DNA of 23,444 bases from a virus. Shown here one piece after another: positions 3,012-18,295 of the stretch; the stretch's first letter is position 1, and each line of letters opens with the position of its first letter. The position numbers and the translations under genes are program-made. The DNA is taken from IMG/VR virus record IMGVR_UViG_3300046513_000129, positions 1 to 23,444 of that record; one strand, written 5' to 3'. Under the pieces are notes generated by a model, which saw nothing but the letters and a program-made list of their open reading frames with translations, was not told where the DNA came from and ran no database searches.

Positions 3012-3039
3012 CCCGCCAACCACGAAAGGAACTACCGAA

Positions 3040-3375
3040 ATGACCAGCCTGGCATTGACCGCCGACGAGGCGAAGAAGGAATACGGTGACTGCTGCGTCT
3101 CGCCCGACGCCGACAGCCTGCCGAAGTACCCGTACGGTCTCACCTTGTACCTGGACGACGACACCCTGAAGAAGCTGGGCATCACCGACCTGCCGAAGGT
3201 CGGCACCTCGATTCCGGCCACGATCACGGTGATGGTGACCGGCACCAGCCAGCGCGCCACCCAGTCCAGCAAGGAAGGCGAGACCATGCGCACCTGTGTG
3301 GACCTGCAGATCACCGACATGGAAATGACCATGCCGGCGAAGTCCGCGGCCGACGTCCTGTACGGTGCCCAGTAG
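3040..3375 (+). CDS. Putative capsid staple / decoration protein
   Basis: This small protein has 111 residues. The core KYPYGLTLYLDDDTLKKLGI (about residues 27-46), followed by LPKVG and a VDLQITDM strand near residues 88-95, resembles proteins annotated as capsid staple proteins in podoviruses, which clamp neighbouring capsid subunits. The start has AAAGGA at 3025-3030, nine bases upstream. The C-terminus reads KSAADVLYGAQ, and the octapeptide SAADVLYG recurs at the end of the scaffold encoded two genes downstream. The stop is followed 15 bases later by the first copy of the GTATACGT element. The family assignment is from memory of motif patterns and is moderately secure. Confidence 0.6.
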   Translation: MTSLALTADEAKKEYGDCCVSPDADSLPKYPYGLTLYLDDDTLKKLGITDLPKVGTSIPATITVMVTGTSQRATQSSKEGETMRTCVDLQITDMEMTMPAKSAADVLYGAQ

Positions 3376-3390
3376 CACCAGCACCCGCTG

Positions 3391-3402
3391 GTATACGTTC
3401 CG
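3391..3402 (+). promoter_or_regulatory. GTATACGT element, copy 1 (before Bbp19-like gene)
   Basis: GTATACGTTCCG lies 15 bases after the stop of the putative staple gene. It differs at one base from copies at 4499-4510 and 18239-18250. The preceding TGG would make TGGTATAC, a passable extended -10 box, but no convincing -35 is seen and the other copies lack the TG. Its role is unknown. Confidence 0.55.
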
Positions 3403-3403
3403 T

Positions 3404-3433
3404 CCATGGCCGCTCATACAGTGGCGGCCATGG
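3404..3433 (+). promoter_or_regulatory. Perfect 10-bp inverted repeat spanning both candidate starts of the Bbp19-like gene
   Basis: CCATGGCCGC at 3404-3413 pairs perfectly with GCGGCCATGG at 3424-3433 around a 10-base loop. The two in-frame ATG codons (3406 and 3430) lie one in each arm, so in RNA both would be buried in the stem. No Shine-Dalgarno is visible at either start. It follows the GTATACGT element by one base. Confidence 0.6.
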
Positions 3434-3753
3434 ATGACTTTGACCCCCTCGACCCCCACGAACATGAAGCCCGGCAAGCCGAAGAGGCGAAGCGCCAGGC
3501 GCTGGCCAAGCAGCAGCAGGCCGCCGACTTCCTTTGGCTGATGAGCGATCCGCGCGGCCGCCGCTTCGTGTGGCGCCAGCTGGCCGCCGCCGGCGTCTTC
3601 CAATCCAGTTTCGACCCCACCGCCATGAATATGGCTTTCAACGAGGGCCGCCGTTCCGAAGGCCTGCGCCTGCTGGCGCTTGTCATGGAACTGTGCCCTG
3701 ATCTCTACCCCACCATGATGAAGGAGCAATCGACATGTCCGACGGAACCATGA
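3430..3753 (+). CDS. Bbp19-like phage protein
   Basis: This is a protein of about 107 residues with the core FLWLMSDPRGRRFVWRQL, then AGVFQSSF, an FNEGRRSEGL stretch and a MELCPDLYPTMMKE ending. This pattern matches the Bbp19-like family found in podoviruses just upstream of the scaffold. Its function is not established, but its position implies head assembly. ATG 3430 (MDDFDPLDP) is preferred, while ATG 3406 in the same frame would add eight residues. Neither has a clear ribosome binding site, and both lie in a perfect inverted repeat. The 3' end overlaps the scaffold gene by 19 bases and contains its AAGGAG (3721-3726). Confidence 0.82.
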   Translation: MDDFDPLDPHEHEARQAEEAKRQALAKQQQAADFLWLMSDPRGRRFVWRQLAAAGVFQSSFDPTAMNMAFNEGRRSEGLRLLALVMELCPDLYPTMMKEQSTCPTEP

Positions 3754-4481
3754 TCACCGACACCGCGCCGGCCGCACCCGCAGCAGCAGCGGCAGCACCG
3801 GCCGCAGCCGCCGCACCGGCAGGCGATAACCCAGGCGCAGGCGCGCCGGCAGGTGGCCAGGGCGACGCCAGCGCCGCCGCGGCGCCTGGCGCAGGTGCCG
3901 CTGCAGGCAAGGAAGAAGGCGCCGCTGGCGCTGGCGACGAAGGCAAAACCCCCGAGCAGATCGCCGCCGACGAGGCCGCCGCGCGCGCCGCCGAGGAAGC
4001 CAAGGCCAAGACCGGCGCACCGGAGAAATACGAAGCCTTCACCGCGCCCGAAGGTGCCGTGCTGGACGATGCTGTGATGGGCAAGTTTGCCGACGCTGCG
4101 CGCGCGCTGGACCTGCCGCAGGACAAGGCGCAGCAGCTGATCAACGAGATGGCGCCGGTAATGGCCGCCCGCCAGGCCGAGCAGATCCAGCAGCTGCGCA
4201 CCGACTGGGCCGCGCAGTCGACCGCCGACAAGGAATTCGGCGGCGACAAGCTGCAGGAGAATCTGGGCTTCGCGCGCAAGGCGCTGGACACCTTCGCCAC
4301 GCCCGAGCTGAAGACCATCCTGAACGAGACCGGCCTGGGCAACCACCCCGAGCTGGTGCGCTTCATGGTCCGCGCCGGCAAGGCGATCGGCGAAGACAGC
4401 GTCATCACCGGCGGCACCCCGGCCAGCTCGGCAAACCGTTCTGCCGCCGACGTTCTGTACGGCGACAGCACCAAGAAGTAA
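3735..4481 (+). CDS. Capsid scaffolding protein
   Basis: This 248-residue protein sits directly before the capsid gene, the classic scaffold position. The first 75 or so residues are a low-complexity Ala/Pro/Gly stretch. The middle is acidic and helical (about residues 75-180, including LDLPQDKAQQLINEMAPVMA), and a compact C-terminal part carries GNHPELVRFMVRAGKAIGED. The gene product should direct capsid protein into a procapsid and then leave. AAGGAG at 3721-3726 sets the start with eight-base spacing. The last residues, RSAADVLYGDSTKK, share SAADVLYG with the putative staple protein. C-terminal tails of scaffolds commonly bind the inner capsid surface, so this may be the binding motif. Confidence 0.86.
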   Translation: MSDGTMITDTAPAAPAAAAAAPAAAAAPAGDNPGAGAPAGGQGDASAAAAPGAGAAAGKEEGAAGAGDEGKTPEQIAADEAAARAAEEAKAKTGAPEKYEAFTAPEGAVLDDAVMGKFADAARALDLPQDKAQQLINEMAPVMAARQAEQIQQLRTDWAAQSTADKEFGGDKLQENLGFARKALDTFATPELKTILNETGLGNHPELVRFMVRAGKAIGEDSVITGGTPASSANRSAADVLYGDSTKK

Positions 4482-4493
4482 TCCAGCCTGAAG

Positions 4494-4513
4494 CGGCGGT
4501 ATACGTACCGCCG
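4494..4513 (+). promoter_or_regulatory. GTATACGT element, copy 2, within a perfect hairpin before the capsid gene
   Basis: The element GTATACGTACCG occupies 4499-4510. Here it forms part of a perfect hairpin: CGGCGGTA (4494-4501), loop TACG (4502-4505), TACCGCCG (4506-4513). There is no U-tract after it, so it is not an ordinary terminator. It could be an RNA processing or stability hairpin, or a protein-binding DNA palindrome. Confidence 0.6.
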
Positions 4514-4528
4514 TCGCCCTTCCTTACC

Positions 4529-4577
4529 CTTCAGTCTCACCGAAGAAATTGTCGGTTTTCAATATCCCCTACTGAAG
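4529..4577 (+). promoter_or_regulatory. Capsid gene leader stem pairing with the ribosome-binding region
   Basis: CTTCAGT at 4529-4535 is perfectly complementary to ACTGAAG at 4571-4577. The right arm overlaps the capsid Shine-Dalgarno GAAGAGG (4574-4580). Inside it, ACCGA (4539-4543) pairs with TCGGT (4552-4556), followed by TTTT. The 108-base spacer is the longest in the structural operon, and the fold would sequester part of the ribosome binding site. Confidence 0.5.
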
Positions 4578-4589
4578 AGGTAACCACAC

Positions 4590-5609
4590 ATGGCAACTTT
4601 GAACGCCGGCCAGCTGACCCTGGCTGATTGGGCTAAGCGCCTCGATCCGGATGGCCGCGCGCCGAAGGTGGCAGAGGTCCTGTCCCAGACCAACGAGATT
4701 CTGGAAGACGCGGTCATGATCGAAGGCAACCTGCCGACCGGCCACCGTCTGGTGATCCGCACCGGCCTGCCGCAGGTCTTCTACCGCATGATCAACCAAG
4801 GCGTCCCGACCAGCAAGTCGACCACCACCCAGATCGACGAAGCATGCGGCATCCTGGAAGCGCGTTCCCACATCGACGTCGAGCTGGTCAAGCTGAACGG
4901 CAACGAAGCCGCTTTCCGCCTGTCGGAAGACCGCGCCTTCATCGAAGCGATGAACCAGGCCATGGCCGGCGCCATGTTCTACGGTAACCCGGGCGTCGAC
5001 CCGCGCCAGTTCCTGGGCCTGCAAACCCGCTACAGCTCGCTGACCGCGGGCAACGGCCAGAACATCCTGGACGCTGGCGGCACCGGCACCAACAACTGCT
5101 CGATCTATCTGGTGGTGTGGGGCGAAGACACCGTCTTCTGCCCGTTCCCGAAGGGCACGAAAGCCGGCCTGGACCACAAGGACCTGGGCGAAGAATCGGT
5201 GCAGGACGCGAACGGCAACTACTACCAGGCAGTGCGCGCGCTGTACCAGTGGAAGAACGGCCTGGCCGTCAAGGACTGGCGCTACGTGGTCCGCATCGCG
5301 AACATCAACGTGACCGACCTGACCGGCCAGTCCGCCACCCAGGCCAGCTCGGCGGCCACCGCCATCATCAACCTGATGATCCGCGCCCTGGACCGTGTGC
5401 CGAACCTGGCCATGGGCCGCCCGGCCTTCTACGCGAACCGCACCGTGTATTCGATGCTGCGCGTGGCCGCGCTGAACAAGTCGAACAACGCGCTCTCGAT
5501 CGAGAACGCCACCAACCAGTTCGGCACTGCGTACAAGATGACCACCTTCATGGGTGTGCCGCTGCGCAAGGTCGACCAGCTGCTCAACACCGAATCGCGC
5601 GTCGTCTAA
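4590..5609 (+). CDS. Major capsid protein (epsilon15 gp7 / BPP-1 Bbp17-like)
   Basis: This 339-residue protein should form the icosahedral shell with an HK97-type fold. Conserved stretches that mark the family are LTLADWAKRLDPDG (about residues 10-23), EVLSQTNEILEDAV, GNLPTGHRLVIRTGLP, a PTSKSTTTQIDEACGILEA block (about 73-91), EAMNQAMAGAMFYGNPG, and a C-terminal FMGVPLRKVDQLLNTES. The start has GAAGAGG at 4574-4580, nine bases upstream. Its 5' leader is long and structured and carries the GTATACGT element. The scaffold precedes it and a Bbp16-like cement gene follows after 29 bp, completing a standard capsid module. Assignment to this podoviral family rests on motif memory and context, both strong. 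Confidence 0.93.
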   Translation: MATLNAGQLTLADWAKRLDPDGRAPKVAEVLSQTNEILEDAVMIEGNLPTGHRLVIRTGLPQVFYRMINQGVPTSKSTTTQIDEACGILEARSHIDVELVKLNGNEAAFRLSEDRAFIEAMNQAMAGAMFYGNPGVDPRQFLGLQTRYSSLTAGNGQNILDAGGTGTNNCSIYLVVWGEDTVFCPFPKGTKAGLDHKDLGEESVQDANGNYYQAVRALYQWKNGLAVKDWRYVVRIANINVTDLTGQSATQASSAATAIINLMIRALDRVPNLAMGRPAFYANRTVYSMLRVAALNKSNNALSIENATNQFGTAYKMTTFMGVPLRKVDQLLNTESRVV

Positions 5610-5638
5610 CGCGGTTCACCAGGAATAAGGAACGAATC

Positions 5639-6127
5639 ATGATCCTCGATGCAGCATTGCTTTTGTCGGGTTCCGTCGCCGCAAACGGCACCCTGACCGG
5701 CCAGTCCCTGGTTGGTACCGGCAACATCCTGTCGTCCAACACCATCGACATCGCCCCGCTGACCTTGGGCGGCAACCAGGCCGGTGACATCGGCATCGGC
5801 GAAGAGATGTACCTGGAATTCAGCATCCTGACCGCCGTGACCGGTGGCACCAGCGTGCGCTTCCAGCTGATCCAGGCAGACGACGCCGCCCTGACCACTA
5901 ACGTGCAGGTGATCAACCAGACCGACGATCTCCCGATCGCCAACCTGGGCGCCGGCGCGCTGATCCCGCTGCACTGGGATCCGGCCCAGCCGTACACGCC
6001 GAAGCGCTACGTCGGCACCCGCTACGTGGTGACCGGCACCAACACCGCCGGCAGCGTCACGGCCGCGGTGGTTAAGAACCAGCAGAGCCGCCAGACCAGC
6101 TACAAGTCCGGCTTCTCGGTCTCGTAA
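5639..6127 (+). CDS. Bbp16-like capsid cement (decoration) protein
   Basis: The product has 162 residues. It starts at ATG 5639, with AAGGAA at 5627-5632 six bases upstream, although the frame is open farther upstream within the capsid gene. Family-like features are an N-terminal MILDAALLLSGS, a SSNTIDIAP segment, GDIGIGEEMYLEF, a TGGTSVRFQLIQADDAAL strand block (about residues 77-94) and a KRYVGTRYVVTG strand near the C-terminus. In BPP-1, Bbp16 forms dimers on the capsid surface that hold capsid proteins together. The position directly after the capsid gene fits this. A GC-rich hairpin follows the double stop (TAATAA). Confidence 0.85.
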   Translation: MILDAALLLSGSVAANGTLTGQSLVGTGNILSSNTIDIAPLTLGGNQAGDIGIGEEMYLEFSILTAVTGGTSVRFQLIQADDAALTTNVQVINQTDDLPIANLGAGALIPLHWDPAQPYTPKRYVGTRYVVTGTNTAGSVTAAVVKNQQSRQTSYKSGFSVS

Positions 6128-6134
6128 TAATCCC

Positions 6135-6152
6135 GGCGGGCTTCGGCCCGCC
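6135..6152 (+). terminator. GC-rich TTCG-loop hairpin after the cement gene
   Basis: GGCGGGC (6135-6141) and GCCCGCC (6146-6152) form a perfect 7-bp stem closed by a TTCG tetraloop. It is followed by ACCAACGTTTTAGG, a poor U-tract about eight bases away. It may act as a partial terminator or as an RNA 3'-end stabiliser that keeps capsid mRNA more abundant than tail mRNA. Confidence 0.55.
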
Positions 6153-6174
6153 ACCAACGTTTTAGGAGAAATGC

Positions 6175-6843
6175 ATGAATCGTCATCTTCGTCATTCCCG
6201 CCTGGGCGCCACTATGATGGCCGCTGTTGCCCTGGCCGCCTGCAGTATCGAAGCCGCCGGCACCGCCAGCGCCGACAACCTGGCCGGCACGAGCGCCCCG
6301 CGCGAGCCGGTGCAGTACCGCGTCAAGGAAGCATCGCTGATCGGTAACGAGATTTTCCAGCCTGGCGCAATCGTGTCCTACGACGGCCTGCCGTCCGAGA
6401 ACCTGGAACCGCTGTGCGACATCGGCCGCGCCCGCTTCGCCGAGTACCAGGAATCCAACCGCGCGCGCGTCACCAGGATGATCGAGATGAACAAGGAAAG
6501 CGGCGTCGGCGATCCGGCCCAGTTCGCTGCCCAGTTCCAAAAGGCGCTGAAGGAATCCAACGACGAGCACGAGCGCCGCATGGCCGAGCTGCAGAAGACG
6601 CTGGTGGAAGCCCAGGCGCGCGCCGCCGAGCAGATGGGCGCCGCTGTGGCCCAGGGCGTGGCCGCTGTGCTCCAGCAGCTCTTCCCGAACGGTGTGCCGA
6701 CTGCCGCCGCACCGGCTGCGCCGACCGAGCCGGCAACGCCTGCCGCACCGGCTGACGACCCCGCGGCAACCGGCGACAGCGCCACCGGCACCGATGGCGG
6801 CGACCAGTCGACCACGCCCCCGCCGAAGCGCACGCGGAGCTAA
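6175..6843 (+). CDS. Predicted phage lipoprotein with coiled-coil region
   Basis: The protein has 222 residues. The N-terminus has Arg/His residues, a hydrophobic stretch GATMMAAVALAA (about 11-22) and a lipobox LAAC with Cys23. Ser at the next position would favour outer-membrane sorting. Then comes a small domain, YRVKEASLIGNEIFQPG to LPSENLEPLC (about 45-80), resembling short proteins encoded in phage structural modules, a long helical coiled-coil region (about 85-165) and a Pro/Ala/Thr-rich tail. AGGAGA (6164-6169) sets the start. The gene lies between a hairpin and an intrinsic terminator, in the head-to-tail junction of the operon. It could be a virion component with a fortuitous leader or a membrane lipoprotein acting on the host, for example in superinfection exclusion. 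Confidence 0.7.
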   Translation: MNRHLRHSRLGATMMAAVALAACSIEAAGTASADNLAGTSAPREPVQYRVKEASLIGNEIFQPGAIVSYDGLPSENLEPLCDIGRARFAEYQESNRARVTRMIEMNKESGVGDPAQFAAQFQKALKESNDEHERRMAELQKTLVEAQARAAEQMGAAVAQGVAAVLQQLFPNGVPTAAAPAAPTEPATPAAPADDPAATGDSATGTDGGDQSTTPPPKRTRS

Positions 6844-6877
6844 AACCAGCGATCGCCACCTGAGCGGCGCACTTCCG

Positions 6878-6907
6878 AAAGGGGCGATCTTGCGGTCGCC
6901 CCTTTTT
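6878..6907 (+). terminator. Rho-independent terminator after the lipoprotein gene
   Basis: AAAGGGGCGA (6878-6887) pairs perfectly with TCGCCCCTTT (6896-6905) around an 8-base loop, and the T-run continues to 6907. This is a convincing intrinsic terminator inside the late operon, so downstream tail genes would need antitermination, readthrough or an internal promoter. Confidence 0.75.
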
Positions 6908-6924
6908 GCATTCTGGAGAACCAC

Positions 6925-7584
6925 ATGTCATCTGAAGTCGAAATCTGCAACCTGGCGCTGGCCCACCTGGGCGACAGCGCCACCGTGGCCAGCATCAACC
7001 CACCCGAGGGATCGGCCCAGGCCGAGCACTGCGCGCGCTGGTATCCGATCGCGCGCAACTCGCTGCTGGAAGTGCAGGAATGGGGATTCGCCACCACGCG
7101 CGCGCTGCTGGCGGAAGTCGCAAACACGTTCCCGCAATGGCAGCATGCCTACGCGCGCCCAGCCGACTGCCTGAAGGTGCTGGCCGTCCTGCCGTCGGAC
7201 GCCACCGGCGACCAGGCCAGCAACTACCCGGCCAACTTCTACCCGTCGGTGAACACGCCCGACCGCGCCTTCTACACGCCGCAGGAGTTCACCACCGAGG
7301 TAGACGCAAACGGGAACCAGATCATCCTGACCAACCAGGCCAATGCCCTGATCCGCTATACCCGTTTCGTCACCGACACCAGCAAATTCTCGCCGCTGTT
7401 CACCGACGCGCTGGGCTGGTACCTGTCCAGCTACCTGGCCGGACCGGTGCTCAAGGGCGAAACCGGCATCACGGTCGGGCAAGCCAACCTGAAGATCGCG
7501 CTGGCTATGCTGGCGAATGCCGCGGTGTCCAGCGCCAGCCAGCAGCAGGAAAAGCTGGTGCAGGCCTACCCATGGAGCCGCTGA
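6925..7584 (+). CDS. Tail tubular protein A-like (T7 gp11-like adaptor)
   Basis: This 219-residue protein begins SSEVEICNLALAHLGD, the hallmark of gp11-like proteins that form the adaptor ring between portal and tail nozzle. Other typical features are the YPIARNSLLEVQEWGFA block (about residues 36-52), a Pro/Asp-rich middle, a LIRYTRFVTDTSKFSPLFTD stretch (about 140-160) and a final helix with AQPWSR-like ending (QAYPWSR). CTGGAGAA lies just upstream of the ATG. The stop precedes the gp12-like start by one base, so the two tail proteins are made from a coupled pair, as in T7-like phages. Confidence 0.88.
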   Translation: MSSEVEICNLALAHLGDSATVASINPPEGSAQAEHCARWYPIARNSLLEVQEWGFATTRALLAEVANTFPQWQHAYARPADCLKVLAVLPSDATGDQASNYPANFYPSVNTPDRAFYTPQEFTTEVDANGNQIILTNQANALIRYTRFVTDTSKFSPLFTDALGWYLSSYLAGPVLKGETGITVGQANLKIALAMLANAAVSSASQQQEKLVQAYPWSR

Positions 7585-7585
7585 C

Positions 7586-9649
7586 ATGGGCGCCAATATC
7601 CGCACCTACAAGGCCAGCTTCAATGGCGGCGAACTCACCCCCGAGTTCTTCGGCCAGATCGGCGACGCCAAGTTCCAGACCGGCCTGGCGCTGTGCCGCA
7701 ACTTCGTGGTGAAGCCGCAGGGACCGATCGAGAACCGCGCCGGCTTCGAATTCGTCATCGAGGTGAAGGATTCGAACCTGGCCACGCGCCTGCTGCCGTT
7801 CACCTTCTCGACCACCCAGACCATGGTGCTCGAGGTCGGCGAAGGCTACTTCCGCTTCCACACGATGGGCGCCACGCTGCTGGACGACAGCGGCGAGCCG
7901 TACGAGATCGCCAACCCGTACGCCGTCGAAGACCTGTTCGACATCCACTTCATCCAGTCCGGCGACGTGCTCACGCTGGTGCACCCGAACTACGCGCCGC
8001 GCGAGCTGCGCCGCCTGGGCGCCACCAACTGGCAGCTGGTCTCCATCGCCTTCGTTCCGCCGATCCAGCCGCCCGACGACGTGGTCGCATCGCCCAGCGG
8101 CGTCAGCTCCGCATACGACTATTCGTACGTGGTCACCGCCTTCAGCCTGGACGGCGTCAGCCAGTCGGCGGCCAGCCCGCCGGCAAACTGCACGAACAAC
8201 CTGTTCACCACCGGCACGAAGAATTCGATCTTCTGGAATCGCCCGCCGGGCTCGGTGGAAGGGCAAACCCAGTATGCGGTCTACAAGCGCGTGGGCGGCG
8301 TCTATGGCTACATCGGCCGCACCACCGACATCACCCTGATCGACGACAACATCGCGCCGGACCTGTCGCTGACTCCGCCGAAATACGACACCCTGTTCGA
8401 CTCGGCCGGCAACTACCCGGCGGCGACCAGCTACTACGAGCAGCGCCGCGTGTTCGCCGGTACCGGCAACGACCCCCAGAAGATCCTGATGACGCGGTCG
8501 GGCACTGAATCGGACATGTCCTATTCGCTGCCCACGCGCGACGATGACCGGATTGCCTTCCGCATCGCCGCCCTGCAGGCCAACACGATCCGCCATGTGG
8601 TCCCGCTGTCCGACCTGCTGGTGCTAACCAGCTCGGCCGAATTCCGAGTCACCTCGGTGAACACCGACGCCCTGACTCCGACCAGCATTTCCGTGAAGCC
8701 GCAGTCCTACATCGGCGCCAACAACGTGCAGCCGGTGATCATCAACAAGAACTTGCTGTATGGCGCGGCGCGCGGCGGCCACATGCAGGAGCTGACCTAC
8801 TCGCGCGAAGCGAACGGCTATGTGTCGGGCGACCTGTCGCTGCGTTCCACGCACCTGTTCGACGACTTCGAAATCGCCGACATGGCATACGCCAAGGCGC
8901 CGCTGCCGGTGGTGTGGGTGGTCAGCACCTCTGGCAAGCTCCTGGGCCTGACCTATGTGCCGGAACAGCAGGTCGGCGCCTGGCACCAGCACGACACCGA
9001 CGGCGTGTTCGAATCCTGCGCCGTGGTCGCCGAGAACCGCGAAGACGTGCTGTACGTGGTGGTGCGGCGCGACATCGCCGGCCAGCAGAAACGCTACATC
9101 GAGCGCATGGCCAGCCGCCGGTTCACCGACCTGGCGGACGCCTTCTTCGTCGACAGCGGCGGCACCTACAGCGGGCCGGCCACCACTACGATCAGCAATC
9201 TGGGCTGGCTGGAGGGCAAGACCGTCAGCATCCTGGCCGATGGCGCCGTGCACCCGCCGCGCGTGGTGCAGGCCGGCCAGGTCACCCTGGACAGCCCAGC
9301 CAGTCTGGTGCAGATCGGCTTGCCCATCACGGCCGACGCCGAGACCTTGCCGCTGGCCGCGCAAATCGACACCGGATACGGGCAGGGCCGGGTCAAGAGC
9401 GTGAACAAGGTGTGGATGCGCGTGGTGAACTCCAGCGGCATTTTCGCCGGCCCGAGCACCGACAAGCTGGTGCAGTACAAGCAGCGTACCACTGAGCCGT
9501 ACGGGGCACCGCCGAGCCTGCGCACGGAAGAGATCGAAATCGACGTCAAGCCGGACTGGGGCAACGATGCGTCGATCGTGATACGCCAAACCGATCCGTT
9601 ACCCATCACCATTACTTCCATGACTATGGAAGTGTCTATCGCAAACTAA
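7586..9649 (+). CDS. Tail tubular protein B-like (T7 gp12-like nozzle protein)
   Basis: The product has 687 residues. ATG 7586 is chosen because it has GGAG at 7574-7577 and follows the upstream stop by one base, although the frame is open farther upstream. The N-terminal SFNGGELTPEF and ALCRNFVVKPQGPIENRAGF blocks (about residues 11-55) are typical of podoviral nozzle proteins. A fibronectin-like insertion occupies about 160-270 (YSYVVTAFSLDG, YAVYKRVGGVYGYIGRT). The remainder is beta-propeller-like, with SYYEQRRVFAGT, SSAEFRVTS and GAARGGHMQELTY. It should form the tapered nozzle that carries the receptor-binding spike. No interruption is visible. Confidence 0.9.
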   Translation: MGANIRTYKASFNGGELTPEFFGQIGDAKFQTGLALCRNFVVKPQGPIENRAGFEFVIEVKDSNLATRLLPFTFSTTQTMVLEVGEGYFRFHTMGATLLDDSGEPYEIANPYAVEDLFDIHFIQSGDVLTLVHPNYAPRELRRLGATNWQLVSIAFVPPIQPPDDVVASPSGVSSAYDYSYVVTAFSLDGVSQSAASPPANCTNNLFTTGTKNSIFWNRPPGSVEGQTQYAVYKRVGGVYGYIGRTTDITLIDDNIAPDLSLTPPKYDTLFDSAGNYPAATSYYEQRRVFAGTGNDPQKILMTRSGTESDMSYSLPTRDDDRIAFRIAALQANTIRHVVPLSDLLVLTSSAEFRVTSVNTDALTPTSISVKPQSYIGANNVQPVIINKNLLYGAARGGHMQELTYSREANGYVSGDLSLRSTHLFDDFEIADMAYAKAPLPVVWVVSTSGKLLGLTYVPEQQVGAWHQHDTDGVFESCAVVAENREDVLYVVVRRDIAGQQKRYIERMASRRFTDLADAFFVDSGGTYSGPATTTISNLGWLEGKTVSILADGAVHPPRVVQAGQVTLDSPASLVQIGLPITADAETLPLAAQIDTGYGQGRVKSVNKVWMRVVNSSGIFAGPSTDKLVQYKQRTTEPYGAPPSLRTEEIEIDVKPDWGNDASIVIRQTDPLPITITSMTMEVSIAN

Positions 9650-9663
9650 GGGAGAAAGAAGAC

Positions 9664-10215
9664 ATGGGAATCGCAGCAGGAACCATGGGTCAAGGTGTGC
9701 TGGCGGCGCAGGGTGCCGGCGCAGCCGCTTCGGCGGTCGGCGCCTACTTCAGCGCACGCTCGCAGCAGATCGCGGCGCGCGGCGCGGCCGACATCGCCGA
9801 CATCAACGCGCAGCAATCCGAGCAGGCCGCCCAGCAGGAACTCTACCGCGGCAATGCCGAGGTGGCCGCCGCCACCCAGCGCGCCGGCCAGGTGAAGGGC
9901 GCGCAGCGCGCAGCATTCGCCGCCAACGGTGTCGACCTGGGCGTGGGCAGCGCGGCCGAGGTGCTGACGTCGACCGACATGGCGAAGGAAAACGACATCG
10001 CCACGATCACCGGCAACGCGGTGCGCGCCGCCTGGGGCTACCGCATGCAGGGCACCAACTACAAGAACCAGGCGCTGGCCGCGCGCGCATCGGCCGATTC
10101 CATCAGCCCGTTCATGGCCGGCGCCACGTCACTGCTGGGTAGTGCCAGCCAGATCGCCACCAGCTGGTACGTGCTCAACAAAGCCGGCGCCCTGCCGACC
10201 CCGAAAGGAACTTAA
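9664..10215 (+). CDS. Internal virion protein, T7 gp14-like (ejection protein)
   Basis: This 183-residue protein is almost wholly helical, Ala/Gln-rich, with a Gly/Ala-rich amphipathic N-terminus (about residues 1-30) and another weakly hydrophobic C-terminal segment (about 145-172). The block AAFAANGVDLGVGSAAEVL, then DIATITGNAVRAAWGYRMQG, is the signature of small podoviral internal core proteins. In T7, gp14 inserts into the outer membrane during DNA ejection. GGAGA at 9651-9655 precedes the start by eight bases. It is followed after 3 bp by the transglycosylase-bearing ejection protein and then the giant third one, the expected gp14-gp15-gp16-type triplet. Confidence 0.82.
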   Translation: MGIAAGTMGQGVLAAQGAGAAASAVGAYFSARSQQIAARGAADIADINAQQSEQAAQQELYRGNAEVAAATQRAGQVKGAQRAAFAANGVDLGVGSAAEVLTSTDMAKENDIATITGNAVRAAWGYRMQGTNYKNQALAARASADSISPFMAGATSLLGSASQIATSWYVLNKAGALPTPKGT

Positions 10216-10218
10216 TCC

Positions 10219-12357
10219 ATGCCGACCGTTCCAACCTACAACGGCAGCGGCGTTGCGCCGTCGTCCATGCCCGGCGGCGGCTTCGCTGCCCCACAAGTCG
10301 CCAATGCCCAGCCGCAGCAGCTGCAACAGCTCGGCGACGCCACCACGCGCGCGGGCGCCGGCGCGGCCAACATCATCAGCGACATCCAGATGCAGGCCAA
10401 CCAGGTGCGCGTCGACGCCGCCCTGAACACCGTGCGGCAGCAACAGCTGGCGCTGACCTACGATCCGCAGAACGGCTACCTGTCGAAGAAGGGCGCGGCC
10501 GCGCTCGATCCTGACCCGCTCGACCGCTCCCTGCCGCAGCAGTACAGCGAGCAGCTGACCGACGCCATCAACAAGGCGGCCGAAGGCCTGGGCAACGACG
10601 AGCAGCGCCGCGTGTTCACCCAGCAGGCCGCAGCGCTGCACACCCAGTTCACCGGCGGCGTGGAAAGCCACATGCTGCAGGAGTACCGCACCTTCGGCCT
10701 GGAGACCCAGCAGGGCACCATCAAGTTGGCGGCCGACGCGGCGAAGCTGAACTGGTCCGACCCCGATACGATCGGCGAACAGATCAAGAGCGCCCAGGCG
10801 GCGGTGTGGAAGGCCGGGCAGCTCAGCGGCGAGCCGGGCAACCTGACCAGCGCCAAGATCAAGGAGACCACCAGCGCCATCCATGCCGGCGTGATCCAGG
10901 CGGCGCTCGACAACAACAACCCGGCCTATGCGCTGGGCTACATCGAGTCGAAGAAGGGCGAGATGACCGCCGACGACTTGCTGAAAGCGAACGGGCTGGT
11001 GAAGGCCGACGTGCGCGCGCGCGTGGCCACCGTGACCGCCCAGAACGCGATGACGTCACTGCAGTCGAAGCTGGCGCCGACCGACGCCGAGCAGGTGCTG
11101 GGGATCACCATGCAGACCGAAAGCGGCGGCGACCGTGACGCGCTCGGGCGCTTCGTACCTGGCCAGGGCCGCGCCAAGGGCGCCATGCAGGTGATGGACG
11201 CCACCAACATCGACCCAGGCTATGGCGTGACGCCGGCGAAGGACAACAGCCCTGAAGAGCGCGTGCGCGTCGGGCGCGACTACATGCTGGCCATGGTGAA
11301 GAACTACGGTGGCGACCTGTCGAAGGCCTGGGCCGCATACAACGCCGGGCCCGGTAAAGTCGACGAGGCCATGGCGGAGGCGAAGAAGTCCGGCGGCGAC
11401 TGGCTGGCGCTGATGCCGAAGGAAACCCAGGACTACGTGGCCAAGAACCAGGCCGCCTACCAGAAGTCTGCCGTGGTCGCGATTCCGTCCCAGCAGGATG
11501 TGCATGATGCGATCCGCCAGCAGCTTGGGCCAAACGCCGACCCGAAGGTGCTGGGCGCGGCGCTGGCCGAGGGCACCCGCCTGTACACCGACTTCATCGC
11601 CGACCGCAAGACCCGCGGCGAGAACGCCACCATCCAGGCGCAGCAGTGGCTGGTCCAGAACGGCGGCAACATGTCCGGCATGCCGTCGTCGCTGCTCCAG
11701 CAGGTGACCCAGTACGCGCCCGACAAGGTCGACAACCTGATCGACTTCGGCAAGAAGATCGCCAGTCGCGACAACGTCAAGACCAACATGTCGGCCTATT
11801 ACGACTCGGTGGCCAACGTCGAAGAGCTGGCCAAGATGCCGCAATCCGTGTTCAACGACTTTGTGCAGAAGAACTTTTCCAACGAGGACGGCAAGCACAT
11901 CGCGGCGCTGCGCCAGGCCGAGATCGACGGCGGCGAGAACACGGGCGCAGGTGCGCTGAACCGGCCGGCGCTGAACATGGCGCTGAACAGCCGGCTCGAG
12001 GCGATCGGCATCAATCCGACGCCGAAGAGCCTGGACGAGAAGGCGCGAGTGGGCAGCATTCAGAAGTTCGTCACCGACGGCATCTTCGCGCAGCAGAAGC
12101 AGCTGGGCCGGAAGATGACGGCCGCCGAGGTCAGCGACTTCGTGGACCAGACCATGGCGCGCAACGTCACGTTCCGGAACACCTTCCTGGGCGTCACCAC
12201 CGGCAGCAGTCAAGCCAACCTGATGGCGCTGAAGGTCGGCGACATCCCGAACGAATCCTTGGTGCAGATCCGCGCCGCGCTGGCCCGCCAGGGCAACGCG
12301 CGCCCGACCGATGATCAAATCCTTCGCACTTACTGGACGAGCAAAAATGGCCGATAA
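10219..12357 (+). CDS. Internal virion protein with lytic transglycosylase domain
   Basis: The product has 712 residues. The N-terminal 280 or so residues are helical and Gln/Ala-rich. An SLT-type lytic transglycosylase domain spans about 285-410, with the probable catalytic Glu301 in QTESGGD, then AKGAMQVM (about 320) and AAYNAGPG (about 373). The C-terminal 300 residues are helical with no recognised domain. In podoviruses such a protein is ejected with the DNA and opens peptidoglycan in the periplasm. In T7 the activity sits on the largest protein (gp16), whereas here it sits on the middle one. GAAAGGA (10203-10209) precedes the start, and the stop overlaps the next gene by 11 bases. Confidence 0.88.
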   Translation: MPTVPTYNGSGVAPSSMPGGGFAAPQVANAQPQQLQQLGDATTRAGAGAANIISDIQMQANQVRVDAALNTVRQQQLALTYDPQNGYLSKKGAAALDPDPLDRSLPQQYSEQLTDAINKAAEGLGNDEQRRVFTQQAAALHTQFTGGVESHMLQEYRTFGLETQQGTIKLAADAAKLNWSDPDTIGEQIKSAQAAVWKAGQLSGEPGNLTSAKIKETTSAIHAGVIQAALDNNNPAYALGYIESKKGEMTADDLLKANGLVKADVRARVATVTAQNAMTSLQSKLAPTDAEQVLGITMQTESGGDRDALGRFVPGQGRAKGAMQVMDATNIDPGYGVTPAKDNSPEERVRVGRDYMLAMVKNYGGDLSKAWAAYNAGPGKVDEAMAEAKKSGGDWLALMPKETQDYVAKNQAAYQKSAVVAIPSQQDVHDAIRQQLGPNADPKVLGAALAEGTRLYTDFIADRKTRGENATIQAQQWLVQNGGNMSGMPSSLLQQVTQYAPDKVDNLIDFGKKIASRDNVKTNMSAYYDSVANVEELAKMPQSVFNDFVQKNFSNEDGKHIAALRQAEIDGGENTGAGALNRPALNMALNSRLEAIGINPTPKSLDEKARVGSIQKFVTDGIFAQQKQLGRKMTAAEVSDFVDQTMARNVTFRNTFLGVTTGSSQANLMALKVGDIPNESLVQIRAALARQGNARPTDDQILRTYWTSKNGR

Positions 12358-15300
12358 CGACACCTCGATCTATGACACCGCCGCCGCCGTGGTGATGCAT
12401 CAGGACAAACAGAGCACCGCGCAGCAGGTCCGCAACAACATGCAGTTCGCGGTTGGCACCAGTGCCGACCAGGCAGCCGAGTACCAGCACCTGGCCAAGT
12501 ATGTCGGCGTGGCGCCCGAGACAGTGCAGGCCCAGCCCGACGTGGTGCGCCAGCAAGCCGCCCTGAAGGGGCTGAACACGGACACGATGGTGAACGACCA
12601 GCCGGTGCTGGCCAAGTACCTGACCGACCCGAACAACACGGCCAAGTCGCACGACGATATCGCGCCGCTGGCATCCGTCGAGCAGGCGGCCAAGAACCTG
12701 CCCGGTCCGGCGCCGGCGGCGCAAGCGCCCAGCTTTGGCGACACCCTGACCGGCCTGCCGATGAACTTCATGCAGGGTCTGGGCGGCGCCTTCAACAAGG
12801 CCGCCACTAGCGTGAACATCGTGGCTGGCGCCTTCCCGACGATCTACGACAAGGTGGCCAGCCTGTACACCGGCAAGCAGACCACCTCAGCCAGCGACTG
12901 GTGGTTCCGCAAGATGGTCGACCCGCTGACGCATGACGCGCCCGCCTTCCAGGTGGCGCCGGACGCGCCCTTCGCATCGAAGGCGGCGCAGACCCTGGGC
13001 AACCTCACCGGCATGATGTCCCAGATTGTGCTGACCGGCAGCGGCGGCACCGCGTCGACCGCCGGCACCACCACCGCCGAGGTGGTCGGCAACCAGATGG
13101 CGCACGGCGCCAAGAGCATGGCATTCCCGGCTATGACCGACGCGGTGGACACCGGTCGCAAGGTGTACCAGGAAACCGGCGACGCCCAGCAGGCAATCCG
13201 CGCCGCACAGGCGCAGTACGCCACGTCGACCCTGGGCGGCGTCATGCCGCTGTCGGCGCCCGGCGGCCTGGCCACGCGCGCGCTGGGCGGCTTCGCGTCC
13301 GGTCTCGCCGCCGGCGAGGTATCGCGCCAGGGCATGAACCTGGCCCTGCCCGATTCCATGAACCAGCCTTTCGACATCGAAGGCGCTCTGCTGGCCGGCC
13401 TGTCCGGTTCGCTGCTAGGCACGGTGATGGGCCCGCGCCCCGAACCGTCCTATCATGAGGCCATCCGCCAGTTTTATACTGACTCGACGAAGGCCGAAGC
13501 CGCCGAGCAGGGCATGGCCGCGCTGCAGAAGCTGGGCGAGGCCGCTACCGCCAGCAAGACGCGCGGGCGCGATCGGGAGGCCTTCAAGGAATTCGTGCGC
13601 AGCGCCACCGAGAACGGCCAGCTGCAGGACGTCTATGTCGACGCCAACAAGTTCACAGAGGTGCTGAACCAGGCCGGCGTCGGTCTGCCCGAACTCCAGC
13701 GCCTGATGCCCGAGGTAGCCGCCCAGCTGCACGAGGCCGGCGAGACCAAAGGCGACATCCGGATCCCGGTGGAAGACTACGCCACCCACATCGCCGGCGG
13801 GAAGCTGGACCAGGCGATTCTGCCGCACCTGAAGGTCGAGCCCGACGGCTTCACCTACGACCAGGCGCAGCAGTTCTATCAGGGCCAGCACGCCGACCTG
13901 AAGGCGCAGGCCGAGAAGATCCTGGCCATGAAGACCGCCGACGATGCTGCCCAAACCGAGGCCAAGGAAATTCACGACCGCGTGCTGGACCAGCTCAACG
14001 CCACGGGCCGGTTCCGTCCGGAGGTGAATAACGCCTACGCCGCCCTGACCCGCGACTTCTACGTGACGATGGCTGACCGGACCGGCAGTACCCCGGCGGA
14101 ACTGTTCGCAAAGCATCCGGTCAATATCGTCAGCGAACCGATTACCAGTGCCGCAGCCCTCGATCATGTTGCCCCGGCAGATGGTTCGTTTGGCATCGGC
14201 AGCGTGAAATCTGGCGGAGCGAAGGCCAAACGGAGCGATGAGGCAGCAAAGCTGGTGGACCGGGCGACCGCGCCGGCTGTCGAGACGGCAGTCGAACCGG
14301 CTGGCGGTGGCGCGCGCGGCGGCTTCTCCCCTGAATCGAACACGGTGTCGCTGCTGCGCAAAGCGGACCTGTCGACCTACCTTCACGAATCGGGCCACTT
14401 TTACCTGGAGGTGATGCACGACATCGCCAGCGCGGCGGACGCGCCGCAGCAGGTACGCGACGACTTCGACACGCTGCTGAAATCGTTCGGCATCGAGGGC
14501 GACAGCGCCGAGCAGCGCCTGGCGGACTGGACCGGACGAACCTTGGACCAGAAGCGGGCCGGCCACGAGCAGTTTGCCCGTAGCTTCGAGGCCTACCTGC
14601 TAGAAGGAAAAGCACCCACGCTCGAGCTGCAAAGCCTCTTCTCGCGTTTCCGCTCGTGGCTTGTCGCGATCTACCATTCCCTGAAAAGCCTGAACGTCGA
14701 GCTGACGGACGAGGTGCGCGGCGTGATGGACCGGCTGGTTGCAACCGACGACGCGATCCGCTACACCGAGCAGGCGCGTGGCTACTTGCCCGTGCACGTC
14801 GAGGGCACTGCCGAAGAGGTGGCGGCCTACCGGGCCATGGGCAAGGAAGCGACCGACAAGGCCGTGGCCGAGATGGACGCGCGCAGCCTGCGCGACATGC
14901 AGTGGGCCAGCAACGCGAAGGCCAAGGCGCTGCGCGAGCTGCAGAAGCAGGCCGACACCCAGCGCAAGGCAATCCGCGACGAGGTCACGCGCGAGATGGA
15001 AGCCGAGCCCGTCCGCCAGGCGGAAGCCTACCTGAAGCGCCCGAACGGCACCGACCCTGCGCCGGCCGCCGAGGTGCGCGAGTGGGAGGGTCGCCGCGAC
15101 GCTGAACAATCCCAGCTGCAGAATGAGGTGAAGGGCAAGTATCTGGCCAGCGAGGAAGGCGCCGCCACGAAGGGGCTGAAGCGCGGCCAGTTTCTGGCGA
15201 AGAACAAGCGCGCGATCGCCAACGAGGCCGAGCGCCGGCTGATCGAGTGGGAGCAGCAGAACCCGCGCCCGAGCCGCGGCGATCCCGGCATCGACATCGT

Positions 15301-18235
15301 GGCCGAAATGTTCGGCTTCGACAGCGGCGCGGCGCTGCGCAAGGCGATCAAGGAAGCAGGCAAGCTGAAGGACCGCATCGAGCAGGAGACCGACCGCCGC
15401 ATGCTGGAGCGCCACGGCGACCTGGTCGACCCGGTTAGCGTCGAACGTGCCGCCGAAGCCGCCGTGCACAACGAGACCCGCGCGCGGTTCATCGCCACCG
15501 GCCTGAAGCTCCTGGCCAAGTCGCCGATTCCGGCGCGCCAGCTGGCCGAGGCGGCCCGGGAAGCAGCTGAAGCCGCCGTCGCCGCCAAGCGCGTGCGCGA
15601 CCTGCGCCCGGCACAGCACGCGGCCGCCGAGGCGCGCGCGAACAAGGAAGCGGTCAAGCTAGCCGCTAAGGACCCGCAGGGCGCCGTGCAGCAGCAGCGC
15701 GCGGCCCTGCTGAACAACCGCCTGTTCAAGGCCGCCAGCGACGCCGTGGCCGAGGTCCAGAAGGGCGTGGTCTTCCTGGGCAAGTTCGACAAGGCCAGCG
15801 TGCGCGACAAGATCGCGCTGGAATACCGCGACCAGATCGACGCCATTCTCGAGCGATTCGACCTGCGCAAGTCCACCACCAACACGGCCCTGGACGCGCG
15901 CCAGTCGCTGCTGACGTTCGTGGAACAGCTGGCTGGCCAGGGTCTGGAGCCGCAGATTCCCGAAGGCCTGCTGAACGAGGCGCGCCGCATGCACTACAAG
16001 GACATGACGGTCGAAGAGTTCCGGGGGCTGGTCGACGCCGTCAAGTCGCTAGACCACCTGGGCCGCGGCGTGCAGAAGGTGATCGACGGCCAGGAAGCGC
16101 GCGATATCGACGAGCTGGCGCGCGAGGCGGCCGACGTGATGGCCACGCTGCCGCAGCGCGGCGACGAAAGCAACCGCGGGCTGACCCGCATTGATGCCGC
16201 CATGCTTAAGCTCAAGAGCGCCGGCCGCAGCGCCCAGGCATCGCTGCTGAAGATGGAACAGATGATGGACTGGCTGGACGACCGGAATCCGAACGGCGTG
16301 CTGAACCGTATCGTGTTCCGCCGCATCGCCGATGCCGGCGTGAAGGAAGCGGACCTGCTGGCCAAGATCAAGGGCGAGATCGACAACCTGATGGACCAGC
16401 ATCTGGCCGACGTCACGCGCGAACGTGGCAAGGTCTACGAGGCGCCCGGCATGATCGACGGCCTGACCGGCAAGCCGCAGCGGTTCACGAAGAAAGAAAT
16501 GCTGGCGCTGGCCGGCAACATGGGCAACGAGTCGAACATGTCGAAGCTGCTGACCGGCGAAGGCTGGAGCGAAACCGCCGTGTGGCAGTTCCTGCACCAG
16601 AACATGAGCAAGGCGGACTGGGACTTCGTGGCCGGTCTGGGACGCACGCTTGAATCCCTCTGGCCGGAAAAGGTTGCCATGTCGCGACGCCTGGGCAACA
16701 CCAATCCGGAAAAGATCGCCCCGCGCCCGTTCGATACGCCGCATGGTCGTTACGACGGCTGGTACTGGCCGATGATCTACGACCCGGCGCGGTCGCACGA
16801 CGTGGCCATGCGCGGCGCCCGCGACGCCGACAGCCTGTTCGAAAATGTGTACGCGCGCGCCAACAGCGATACCGGACGGATGAACACCCGCAATGCGAAC
16901 TACGCCCGCCCACTGCTGCTGTCCATCGACGCCATTCCGCGCGTGATCCGCGACGAGGTGCACGACATCGCCTACCGTGAGGCGATCATGGACGCCGACA
17001 AGATCCTGCGCAACCCTACCATGCGCAAGGCGATCGTGAACGCACTGAGCCAGGAACACTATGACCAGCTGCGCCCCTGGCTGCAGTCGATCGCCAACGA
17101 CCGCAAGGTCGACATGCAGGCGCTGAAGTGGTTCGATGCCGTCGCCCATGGCGCCCGCACACGCGCCACCATCGTCGGCCTGGGCTACCGCCTGTCGACT
17201 ATGCTGGTGCACGGCAGCTCGGCCGCCATGGAATCGATCGCCGAGGTGGGCCCGGTTTGGTTCGGCAAAGGTCTGGCCGACTTCGCGAACCCCCGCACCT
17301 GGGCCGAGAACCGCGACTTCGTGTTCGAGCGGTCGGGCGAGATGCGCAACCGGATGAACGAGGTCGACCGCGACGTGCGCGAGCACCTGCGCGAAATCGA
17401 TATCCGCCTGATGGACCCGACCAGCGGCGCGCTGGCGCGCGGCACCGATCTGATGAAGGCGCACGCCTACCAGGGCATCGCCATGCTCGACATGGCCAGC
17501 GCCCTGCCGACCTGGATGGGGGCATACCACAAGGGCATGGCGCCGGTCGAGAAAGGCGGCAAGGGGCTGAGCGAGCAGGACGCCATCTACTTCGCCGACA
17601 AGACCGTGCGCAACGCTCACGGCGGCACTGGCGTAAAGGACCTGGCCGCGGTGCAGCGTGGGCCCGAGTTCTTCAAGCTGTTCACGATGTTTTACACGTT
17701 CTGGAATCACAACGTGAACCGCCTGATGGACACCGGCCGACTGGCGACTGACGCACGCACCTGGAAGGATTCGACGCTGGCGGCAACCGTCATCATGCGC
17801 TTCCTGATCTATACCCTGGGCGTCCAGACGATGCACCACATGCTGCACCCGCAGAAGGACGACGAAGGCGAGACGCACTGGCTGGCGTGGGCCGGGAAGG
17901 AATTCGTGTCGGCAGCTTTCGCCGGCGTGCCGATCCTGCGCGACCTGTCGGCGCATTACTTGTCTGGCAAGGATTACAGCGTCACGCCAGCAGCGGGTAT
18001 GGTCGATGCGGTCGGAAAGTCGGGCGTCGACGCGGCCAATGCGCTGACCGGAAAGGAGACCGATCCGAAGGCGCTGAAGCACACCGTCACCACGGCCGGT
18101 TACCTATTCGGCCTGCCGCTCGGCCAGGTGTCCAGCAGCGCCCAGTTCATCTGGGACGTCTCGCAGGGTAAGCAGGATCCACAGAACCTGCAGGACTGGT
18201 GGAACGGCATCCTGCACGGGAAGATCGACCACTAG
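12347..18235 (+). CDS. Giant internal virion / ejection protein with HExxH zincin motif
   Basis: The product has 1962 residues, the largest in the window. ATG 12347 is preferred over the in-frame ATG 12311 because it overlaps the upstream stop by only 11 bases and the protein from there begins MADNDTSIYD. Hydrophobic Gly/Ala-rich segments occur near residues 140-175 and 220-260. The motif HESGH (residues 680-684) is a canonical HExxH zinc-peptidase signature, with downstream Glu741 and Glu748 as candidate third ligands. Residues about 850-1250 are long charged helices. The C-terminal quarter contains aromatic-rich segments such as FFKLFTMFYTFWNH. It should be the large ejection-channel protein. 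Similar polyvalent proteins combine several domains, and peptidase activity is unproven. Confidence 0.85.
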   Translation: MADNDTSIYDTAAAVVMHQDKQSTAQQVRNNMQFAVGTSADQAAEYQHLAKYVGVAPETVQAQPDVVRQQAALKGLNTDTMVNDQPVLAKYLTDPNNTAKSHDDIAPLASVEQAAKNLPGPAPAAQAPSFGDTLTGLPMNFMQGLGGAFNKAATSVNIVAGAFPTIYDKVASLYTGKQTTSASDWWFRKMVDPLTHDAPAFQVAPDAPFASKAAQTLGNLTGMMSQIVLTGSGGTASTAGTTTAEVVGNQMAHGAKSMAFPAMTDAVDTGRKVYQETGDAQQAIRAAQAQYATSTLGGVMPLSAPGGLATRALGGFASGLAAGEVSRQGMNLALPDSMNQPFDIEGALLAGLSGSLLGTVMGPRPEPSYHEAIRQFYTDSTKAEAAEQGMAALQKLGEAATASKTRGRDREAFKEFVRSATENGQLQDVYVDANKFTEVLNQAGVGLPELQRLMPEVAAQLHEAGETKGDIRIPVEDYATHIAGGKLDQAILPHLKVEPDGFTYDQAQQFYQGQHADLKAQAEKILAMKTADDAAQTEAKEIHDRVLDQLNATGRFRPEVNNAYAALTRDFYVTMADRTGSTPAELFAKHPVNIVSEPITSAAALDHVAPADGSFGIGSVKSGGAKAKRSDEAAKLVDRATAPAVETAVEPAGGGARGGFSPESNTVSLLRKADLSTYLHESGHFYLEVMHDIASAADAPQQVRDDFDTLLKSFGIEGDSAEQRLADWTGRTLDQKRAGHEQFARSFEAYLLEGKAPTLELQSLFSRFRSWLVAIYHSLKSLNVELTDEVRGVMDRLVATDDAIRYTEQARGYLPVHVEGTAEEVAAYRAMGKEATDKAVAEMDARSLRDMQWASNAKAKALRELQKQADTQRKAIRDEVTREMEAEPVRQAEAYLKRPNGTDPAPAAEVREWEGRRDAEQSQLQNEVKGKYLASEEGAATKGLKRGQFLAKNKRAIANEAERRLIEWEQQNPRPSRGDPGIDIVAEMFGFDSGAALRKAIKEAGKLKDRIEQETDRRMLERHGDLVDPVSVERAAEAAVHNETRARFIATGLKLLAKSPIPARQLAEAAREAAEAAVAAKRVRDLRPAQHAAAEARANKEAVKLAAKDPQGAVQQQRAALLNNRLFKAASDAVAEVQKGVVFLGKFDKASVRDKIALEYRDQIDAILERFDLRKSTTNTALDARQSLLTFVEQLAGQGLEPQIPEGLLNEARRMHYKDMTVEEFRGLVDAVKSLDHLGRGVQKVIDGQEARDIDELAREAADVMATLPQRGDESNRGLTRIDAAMLKLKSAGRSAQASLLKMEQMMDWLDDRNPNGVLNRIVFRRIADAGVKEADLLAKIKGEIDNLMDQHLADVTRERGKVYEAPGMIDGLTGKPQRFTKKEMLALAGNMGNESNMSKLLTGEGWSETAVWQFLHQNMSKADWDFVAGLGRTLESLWPEKVAMSRRLGNTNPEKIAPRPFDTPHGRYDGWYWPMIYDPARSHDVAMRGARDADSLFENVYARANSDTGRMNTRNANYARPLLLSIDAIPRVIRDEVHDIAYREAIMDADKILRNPTMRKAIVNALSQEHYDQLRPWLQSIANDRKVDMQALKWFDAVAHGARTRATIVGLGYRLSTMLVHGSSAAMESIAEVGPVWFGKGLADFANPRTWAENRDFVFERSGEMRNRMNEVDRDVREHLREIDIRLMDPTSGALARGTDLMKAHAYQGIAMLDMASALPTWMGAYHKGMAPVEKGGKGLSEQDAIYFADKTVRNAHGGTGVKDLAAVQRGPEFFKLFTMFYTFWNHNVNRLMDTGRLATDARTWKDSTLAATVIMRFLIYTLGVQTMHHMLHPQKDDEGETHWLAWAGKEFVSAAFAGVPILRDLSAHYLSGKDYSVTPAAGMVDAVGKSGVDAANALTGKETDPKALKHTVTTAGYLFGLPLGQVSSSAQFIWDVSQGKQDPQNLQDWWNGILHGKIDH

Positions 18236-18238
18236 GGC

Positions 18239-18250
18239 GTATACGTACCG
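18239..18250 (+). promoter_or_regulatory. GTATACGT element, copy 3 (before tailspike gene)
   Basis: GTATACGTACCG begins three bases after the stop of the giant ejection protein and is identical over 12 bases to copy 2 at 4499-4510. It runs directly into the tailspike leader stem. Its role is unknown. Confidence 0.55.
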
Positions 18251-18295
18251 TGGGCGCTGCTGCTGAGAATGCAGCTTTCCGATATGGGCGCCCAC
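18250..18295 (+). promoter_or_regulatory. Structured tailspike leader ending one base before the start codon
   Basis: GTGGGCGC (18250-18257) pairs perfectly with GCGCCCAC (18288-18295). Inside it, GCTGC (18259-18263) pairs with GCAGC (18271-18275) around a 7-base loop. The right outer arm ends one base before ATG 18297, and no Shine-Dalgarno is visible in the normal position. Initiation probably depends on this fold being opened or on an unusual mode of ribosome entry. Confidence 0.5.

Follow-up and report, generated by a model that had tools for sequence, protein, structure and literature searches.

Bipartite elements as candidate phage-specific late promoters in an IMG/VR phage fragment and in relatives including Bordetella phage BPP-1

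A repeated bipartite element ahead of virion genes

The IMG/VR virus record IMGVR_UViG_3300046513_000129, analysed here as one stretch of 23,444 bases (hereafter the window, apparently the right part of a prophage), carries a short sequence element that recurs ahead of three virion genes. In a first-pass annotation the element had been described as a 12-mer, present in two identical copies and one with a single change, each located 3 to 17 bases after a stop codon, and the sequence bears this description out, with GTATACGTTCCG at 3391-3402 (+) and GTATACGTACCG at 4499-4510 and 18239-18250 (+). Specifically, the preceding stop codons lie at 3375, 4481 and 18235, which places the copies 15, 17 and 3 nucleotides downstream, and the genes that follow encode a Bbp19-like protein (Pfam PF25181), the major capsid protein and the tailspike, respectively. 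No further copy with zero or one mismatch is found in the window, and a single match has two mismatches; allowing three mismatches over the whole 12-mer returns 12 matches where 14 are expected, a count that is uninformative.

The recurrence of the 12-mer therefore stands, but the 12-mer as a unit does not, since its twelfth base is variable and the second half of the element had been missed. The functional unit is bipartite and consists of an 11-bp box, 15 nucleotides and a sigma70-like -10 hexamer of the form TAnnnT, a layout present at all three window copies. The box, whose consensus in the closest relatives is GTAYACGTNCC, occupies positions -38 to -28, the place normally taken by a -35 element. 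Upstream of the Bbp19-like gene, the box GTATACGTTCC (3391-3401, +) is followed at the fixed spacing by the hexamer TACAGT (3417-3422, +), with the invariant A(-11) and T(-7), and an orthologous box is found in all relatives having that junction. The predicted capsid promoter is composed of the box GTATACGTACC (4499-4509, +) and the hexamer TACCCT (4525-4530, +), its predicted target being the major capsid gene (4590-5609, +). The same box, GTATACGTACC, at 18239-18249 (+) precedes the hexamer GAGAAT (18265-18270, +) of the putative tailspike promoter; here A(-11) and T(-7) are kept and G replaces T(-12), likewise in orthologous relatives, and the predicted target is a tailspike/tail gene (18297-20096, +) assigned to phrogs tail families. 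In sigma70 -10 elements, A(-11) and T(-7) are conserved more strongly than any other base, and the hexamer has the traits expected of such an element: the TAnnnT form, both key bases and a fixed distance from the box. A generic sigma70 promoter scan of window positions 3000-7100 did not detect these promoters, because they have no -35.

A feature acting at the RNA level, such as a processing site, an antitermination signal or an intercistronic hairpin, can hardly be credited as the explanation of the repeat. Hairpins are possible at the 3391 and 4499 sites, one of them with compensatory changes, but the three window sites fold differently and have no hairpin in common, so that a shared RNA hairpin was dropped as the common feature. 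What the sites do share is the box and the -10 hexamer at a fixed distance, the spacer between them being unconserved within a phage (mean identity 0.33). RNA processing and antitermination, both proposed in the first-pass annotation, are thus unneeded to explain the data.

Conservation at orthologous junctions and concerted change

Relatives were collected with the capsid protein (window 4590-5606) as query, and 80 viral and 18 genome loci were fetched. The exact 12-mer form occurs in six viral loci and in the prophage of Massilia sp. PDC64, on the late strand and at orthologous junctions, so that the proposed search for it in related phages was answered positively in seven relatives. When whole records are scanned, four sites each are found in the near-complete G001, G002, G004, G006 and G007 and in the fragment G003, and three sites each in the fragment G005 and in the window; none of the close relatives has a copy on the opposite strand. 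Absence from the relatives' junctions, or many copies elsewhere, had been named in advance as observations that would undermine the element, and neither is seen in the close relatives. Moreover, the complete Massilia genome (7.5 Mb) contains four copies, all within the prophage, which, together with the lack of opposite-strand copies in any relative, agrees with the earlier judgement that the recurrence is not due to chance. The five near-complete relatives and the fragment G003 carry a copy ahead of a GNAT-like gene, of which the window, starting inside it, holds only the 3' end (1-176, +); because of this copy, the window's fourth site is expected to lie left of the window start, ahead of the GNAT-like gene. 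In the alignment, all 30 sites of eight phages have A at position +28 and T at position +32, and position 27 is mostly T. One relative, G003, has GTACACGT in place of GTATACGT at all four of its sites.

An exact search for the 12-mer had suggested that the motif is absent outside Massilia-type phages, a conclusion overturned by the variant boxes found in intergenic gaps. More distant relatives have two to four or more copies of a box spelling of their own, located at orthologous junctions and with the same rigid spacing. In Bordetella phage BPP-1, for example, GTGCCCGTGCC-N15-TAnnnT precedes bbp24, bbp19 and bbp9, and a further box match with the hexamer AAAACT is found in the bbp27-terS region. 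The box is GTACCCGT in zth2-2, Limnohabitans phage DC33 and MW202722, GTGCCCGT in MW202640, and GTGCGCGT, GTGCACGT, GTGTACGT or GTATTCGT in further groups. In L054/L055, L004 and L009, box and -10 of the capsid-proximal promoter overlie codons, since this promoter falls within the 3' end of the coding gene before it.

The arrangement of the two halves is directional and rigid. Over all loci, the late strand has GT[AG]NNCGT and TAnnnT at 18-nucleotide spacing in 73 unique contexts and the other strand in 7, and the same pair at each of the other spacings from 10 to 25 is found 0-10 times. Among 129 curated sites, T(-31), A(-11) and T(-7) are invariant and C(-33) is present in 127, with the limit that A(-11) and T(-7) were selection criteria and T(-31) and C(-33) partly so.

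Such sites could in principle be ordinary sigma70 promoters with an unusual -35, whose box is read by host sigma70 or a host factor with no phage activator involved. The clear -10 hexamer would fit, but the sites have no TTGACA-like hexamer 16-18 nucleotides upstream of it and match TTGACA even more poorly than random positions (mean best match 1.9 of 6 at the sites, 2.3 at random positions), the spelling of the box varies between related phages with all sites of one phage changing together, and all copies in the 7.5-Mb host genome belong to the prophage. A host-read promoter is, on these grounds, very unlikely.

The concerted change of the box was quantified in 27 phages. In 37 of 38 cases, another TAnnnT-type site matches the Bbp19-junction site of its own phage at the three variable bases, where permutation leads to an expectation of 7.0 on average and at most 19 in 5000 permutations. 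Since the box spelling is shared within a phage and changes at all sites together between phages, this pattern argues for a single trans-acting reader in each phage. The boxes change together although whole sites are not copied, given that spacers from one phage resemble each other no more than spacers from different phages do (identity 0.33 and 0.34, respectively). For the same reason, the differing spacers of one phage, the copies are not recent duplicates. A chance recurrence or a recent duplication of the 12-mer, for instance as a recombination linker between modules, would be in keeping with the location of the sites at module borders; however, dozens of phages conserve the box with its rigid -10, and these comparative data refute such an origin, which we regard as next to impossible.

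A candidate regulator and its pairing with the box

Only two small proteins encoded upstream of the terminase genes are common to all seven relatives whose records reach that region. One is a helix-turn-helix (HTH) protein of 109-111 amino acids in the close relatives, with homologs of 60-111 amino acids across phages, encoded just before the terminase genes. The other, encoded beside the HTH gene and 93-108 amino acids long, has no family match. With a profile of the HTH protein, matches were also obtained in most of the remaining capsid relatives, where the gene has the same place on the map, before the terminase genes, and the profile matches Bbp27 of Bordetella phage BPP-1 as well. The gene bbp27 (BPP-1 locus 26340-26573, 78 amino acids) bears the RefSeq annotation "endonuclease", but the candidate regulators show no match to an HNH nuclease domain, for which 60-111 amino acids leave no room, and match endonuclease families in their HTH part only; judging from sequence, Bbp27 is probably a late regulator rather than an endonuclease.

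Similarity searches with the regulator return resolvase, homeodomain-like and sigma region-4 HTHs and the HTH part of HNH endonucleases, with Pfam affinities to HTH_38, HTH_7 and Sigma70_r4_2. The AlphaFold2 model is a three-helix HTH with the recognition helix at residues 73-80, where the predicted local distance difference test score (pLDDT) is about 90, and a structure search with it gave generic HTH matches only (DeoR, sigma region 4), none with an E-value below 0.1. Sigma regions 2 and 4 were looked for in the regulator, and only a region-4-like HTH with sub-threshold scores was found.

The protein and the promoter travel together. Among the further phages retrieved with the HTH protein as the only query, the same promoter is present in every one that has a true ortholog and a contig extending to a late junction. 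In addition, a box-free search was run in which only A(-11), T(-7) and a location ahead of a gene were prescribed. In it, 11 phages that carry the regulator without following the strict grammar turned out to have a repeated box at the junctions where one is expected, with GTGTGCATA, GTGTGCTTR, RCGTACATARG, GTTCACATAC, GTTCCAATAGG and GGGCACATAG as the spellings of further groups. By contrast, 12 relatives that have no close homolog of the regulator yielded no repeated box in this search; one of the 12, L072, has a marginal HTH hit. Limnohabitans phage DC33 (PQ492659) is classed in the Inoviridae, yet its 39-kb genome carries the capsid gene and the terminase-side regulator gene typical of these tailed phages.

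Furthermore, the regulator covaries with the box. Residue 77, within the recognition helix, is related to box position 3: glutamine or lysine occurs with A in 12 of 12 cases, arginine with G in 16 of 16 and alanine with G in five of six. Out of sample, 80 further loci were fetched with regulators of the BPP-1/zth2-2 type only; this set contains no Arg77 proteins, and the arginine-G rule rests on the original set. At spacing 18 these loci provide 56 unique contexts against three on the other strand and at most six at other spacings. Gln/Lys goes with A in 28 of 28 loci and Ala with G in 24 of 27, counts that exceed the number of independent events as the loci are interrelated (11 unique helix-box combinations for Gln/Lys-A). 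When the rest of the protein is allowed for, box distance correlates with recognition-helix distance (partial r 0.35-0.36; 0 of 5000 permutations).

The same promoters might be read by a different phage protein, with the HTH protein merely co-travelling with the late module. The neighbouring protein of 93-108 amino acids is conserved in all seven close relatives as well, and the distances are confounded by ancestry. On the other hand, that neighbour matches no family, whereas the HTH protein is the DNA-binding candidate that accompanies the box from Massilia to Bordetella, DC33 and zth2-2, it is encoded where the early region gives way to the late one, and in the out-of-sample loci a box base is predicted by its recognition helix. 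We consider another reader unlikely.

From these comparisons we infer, with considerable confidence, that the window elements are late promoters, in which sigma70 would recognise the -10 and the box would be read by a phage activator, most likely the Bbp27-type HTH protein. A phage-specific late promoter or a site for a phage regulator was among the options offered at the outset, and the comparative evidence supports it. In the proposed mechanism, the HTH regulator would be made early, from the last part of the early operon immediately before the terminase genes, a gene position that suits the role of a delayed-early activator. Bound to the box at -38 to -28, it would act with host RNA polymerase, whose sigma70 would read TAnnnT, and it would either displace sigma region 4 or bind beside it. 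In this way it would switch on separate late units, namely those after terL and those of Bbp19, capsid and tailspike, as well as terS in many relatives. The pairing of box and protein would then drift from phage to phage, resulting in private late promoters. A more specific version is that an HTH taken over from homing endonucleases came to replace sigma region 4 at the -35 position of host polymerase, where it would read a box that coevolves with one recognition helix through a simple residue-base code, each phage thereby having private late promoters, among them a conserved leaderless one for Bbp19; this is a tentative proposal that we hold to be somewhat doubtful as a whole.

A number of observations weigh against the activator model. 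The N-terminal stretch of the protein correlates with the box equally well (partial r 0.37, compared with 0.35-0.36 for the helix), and for this reason the distance test does not single out the helix; shared phage ancestry, in turn, inflates the covariation statistics. The residue code has exceptions in G007 and in L216, L218 and L219, and in L021, L035 and L063 the sites of one phage differ from each other at one or two positions of the box. Three phages, L053, L058 and Caulobacter phage BL94, have a regulator homolog and no repeated box in the box-free search; possibly they use another spacing, another -10 or a single site. Part of the distant sites came to light through their repetition, so that the within-phage similarity of those groups is biased, with the strict-grammar test unaffected. 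Finally, the regulator of the window phage itself is deduced from its relatives, as the gene would lie outside the window fragment.

The proposed promoters can be compared with other systems. T4 middle promoters have a MotA box centred at -30, 12 +/- 1 bp from the -10, and MotA/AsiA displaces sigma region 4 (PMC2988021). The elements described here are similar in that a phage box in place of the -35 is combined with a sigma70 -10 and, as a candidate, a small phage DNA-binding reader. They differ in that the centre of the box is at -33, with 15 nucleotides between box and -10, that late virion genes follow, and that the spelling is phage-specific; the MotA-box sequence TGCTTTA is absent (the box being GTnnnCGT/GTnnnCAT), and the candidate reader is a simple three-helix HTH with no double-wing fold.

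At phage promoters with class II activators, such as lambda cII and Mu Mor/C, the activator site overlaps or abuts the -35 and the host sigma70 holoenzyme is used. Unlike the cII site, the present box lacks TTGC-N6-TTGC and is a single asymmetric 11-bp unit, and no relation of the candidate regulator to cII, Mor or C was found. The Xpf-type factor of PBSX controls late phage genes. The candidate regulators share a sigma region-4-like HTH with this sigma-like factor (NCBIfam NF005385; one member with E 9e-4, far below the curated cut-off), but they are 60-111 amino acids long, with one HTH and no sigma region 2. The HTH part of phage HNH homing endonucleases (phrog_6156, phrog_20467) matches the GExHPNAKLTD...HTH sequence of the regulators, which differ from them in having no nuclease domain and a conserved place before the terminase genes. 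A T7-type single-subunit RNA polymerase is absent from the annotated BPP-1 gene list, and the element has a sigma70-like -10.

No described late regulator for BPP-1 and related podoviruses was found in the open-access literature, nor anything relevant there on BPP-1 late promoters or Bbp27, and an earlier mention of the repeat may exist elsewhere. The activator model would account, in a form open to experiment, for late-gene activation in BPP-1, which serves as the model phage for diversity-generating retroelements, and across a wide range of its podovirus relatives; with it, the annotated "endonuclease" Bbp27 would become a probable late activator. In addition, the many matched protein-box pairs would represent a data set for the HTH recognition code and a source of orthogonal phage promoters for engineering.

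The Bbp19 junction, dyads and hairpins

The Bbp19-like gene (3430-3753, +; Pfam PF25181) is predicted to have a leaderless or near-leaderless mRNA. At 33 of 37 orthologous Bbp19-junction sites only 6-8 nucleotides separate the -10 from the ATG or GTG, and because of this short distance transcription is predicted to start at or beside the start codon; in the window, the predicted RNA start is at about 3429-3430, at the ATG. If correct, a leaderless mRNA would be a conserved property of the Bbp19-like gene.

The same junction holds an inverted repeat, TCCATGGCCGC...GCGGCCATGGA (3403-3434, +), which flanks the -10 and contains the Bbp19-like start codon. Across ten related phages, compensatory changes preserve its pairing (covariation score 0.283, 0 of 500 shuffles). 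This repeat may serve as an operator; alternatively, in read-through RNA it may fold into a hairpin that covers the AUG. By way of speculation, the start codon of Massilia-type phages would be hidden in read-through RNA and exposed in the RNA made from the promoter itself.

A 20-bp dyad, CGGCGGTA-TACG-TACCGCCG (CGGCGGTATACGTACCGCCG; 4494-4513, +), surrounds the capsid box. In relatives, too, the box lies within a dyad at the capsid junction, but no dyad is present at the other junctions.

The two long late spacers without a box hold hairpins, as had been noted earlier, namely GGCGGGC-TTCG-GCCCGCC at 6135-6152 and GGGGCGA-N8-TCGCCCC-TTTTT at 6878-6907, both read from the sequence. The terminator character ascribed to them has no counterpart in the terminator scan, which does not list them. 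Similar hairpins occur at the same two spacers in relatives, and they may end transcription units.

At the right end of the window, positions 22140-22185 comprise a sequence resembling the 3' end of a transfer RNA, gggttcgagtcccatcagccacccca, followed by apparent host DNA in the last few kilobases, which suggests that this sequence marks the attachment site of the prophage.

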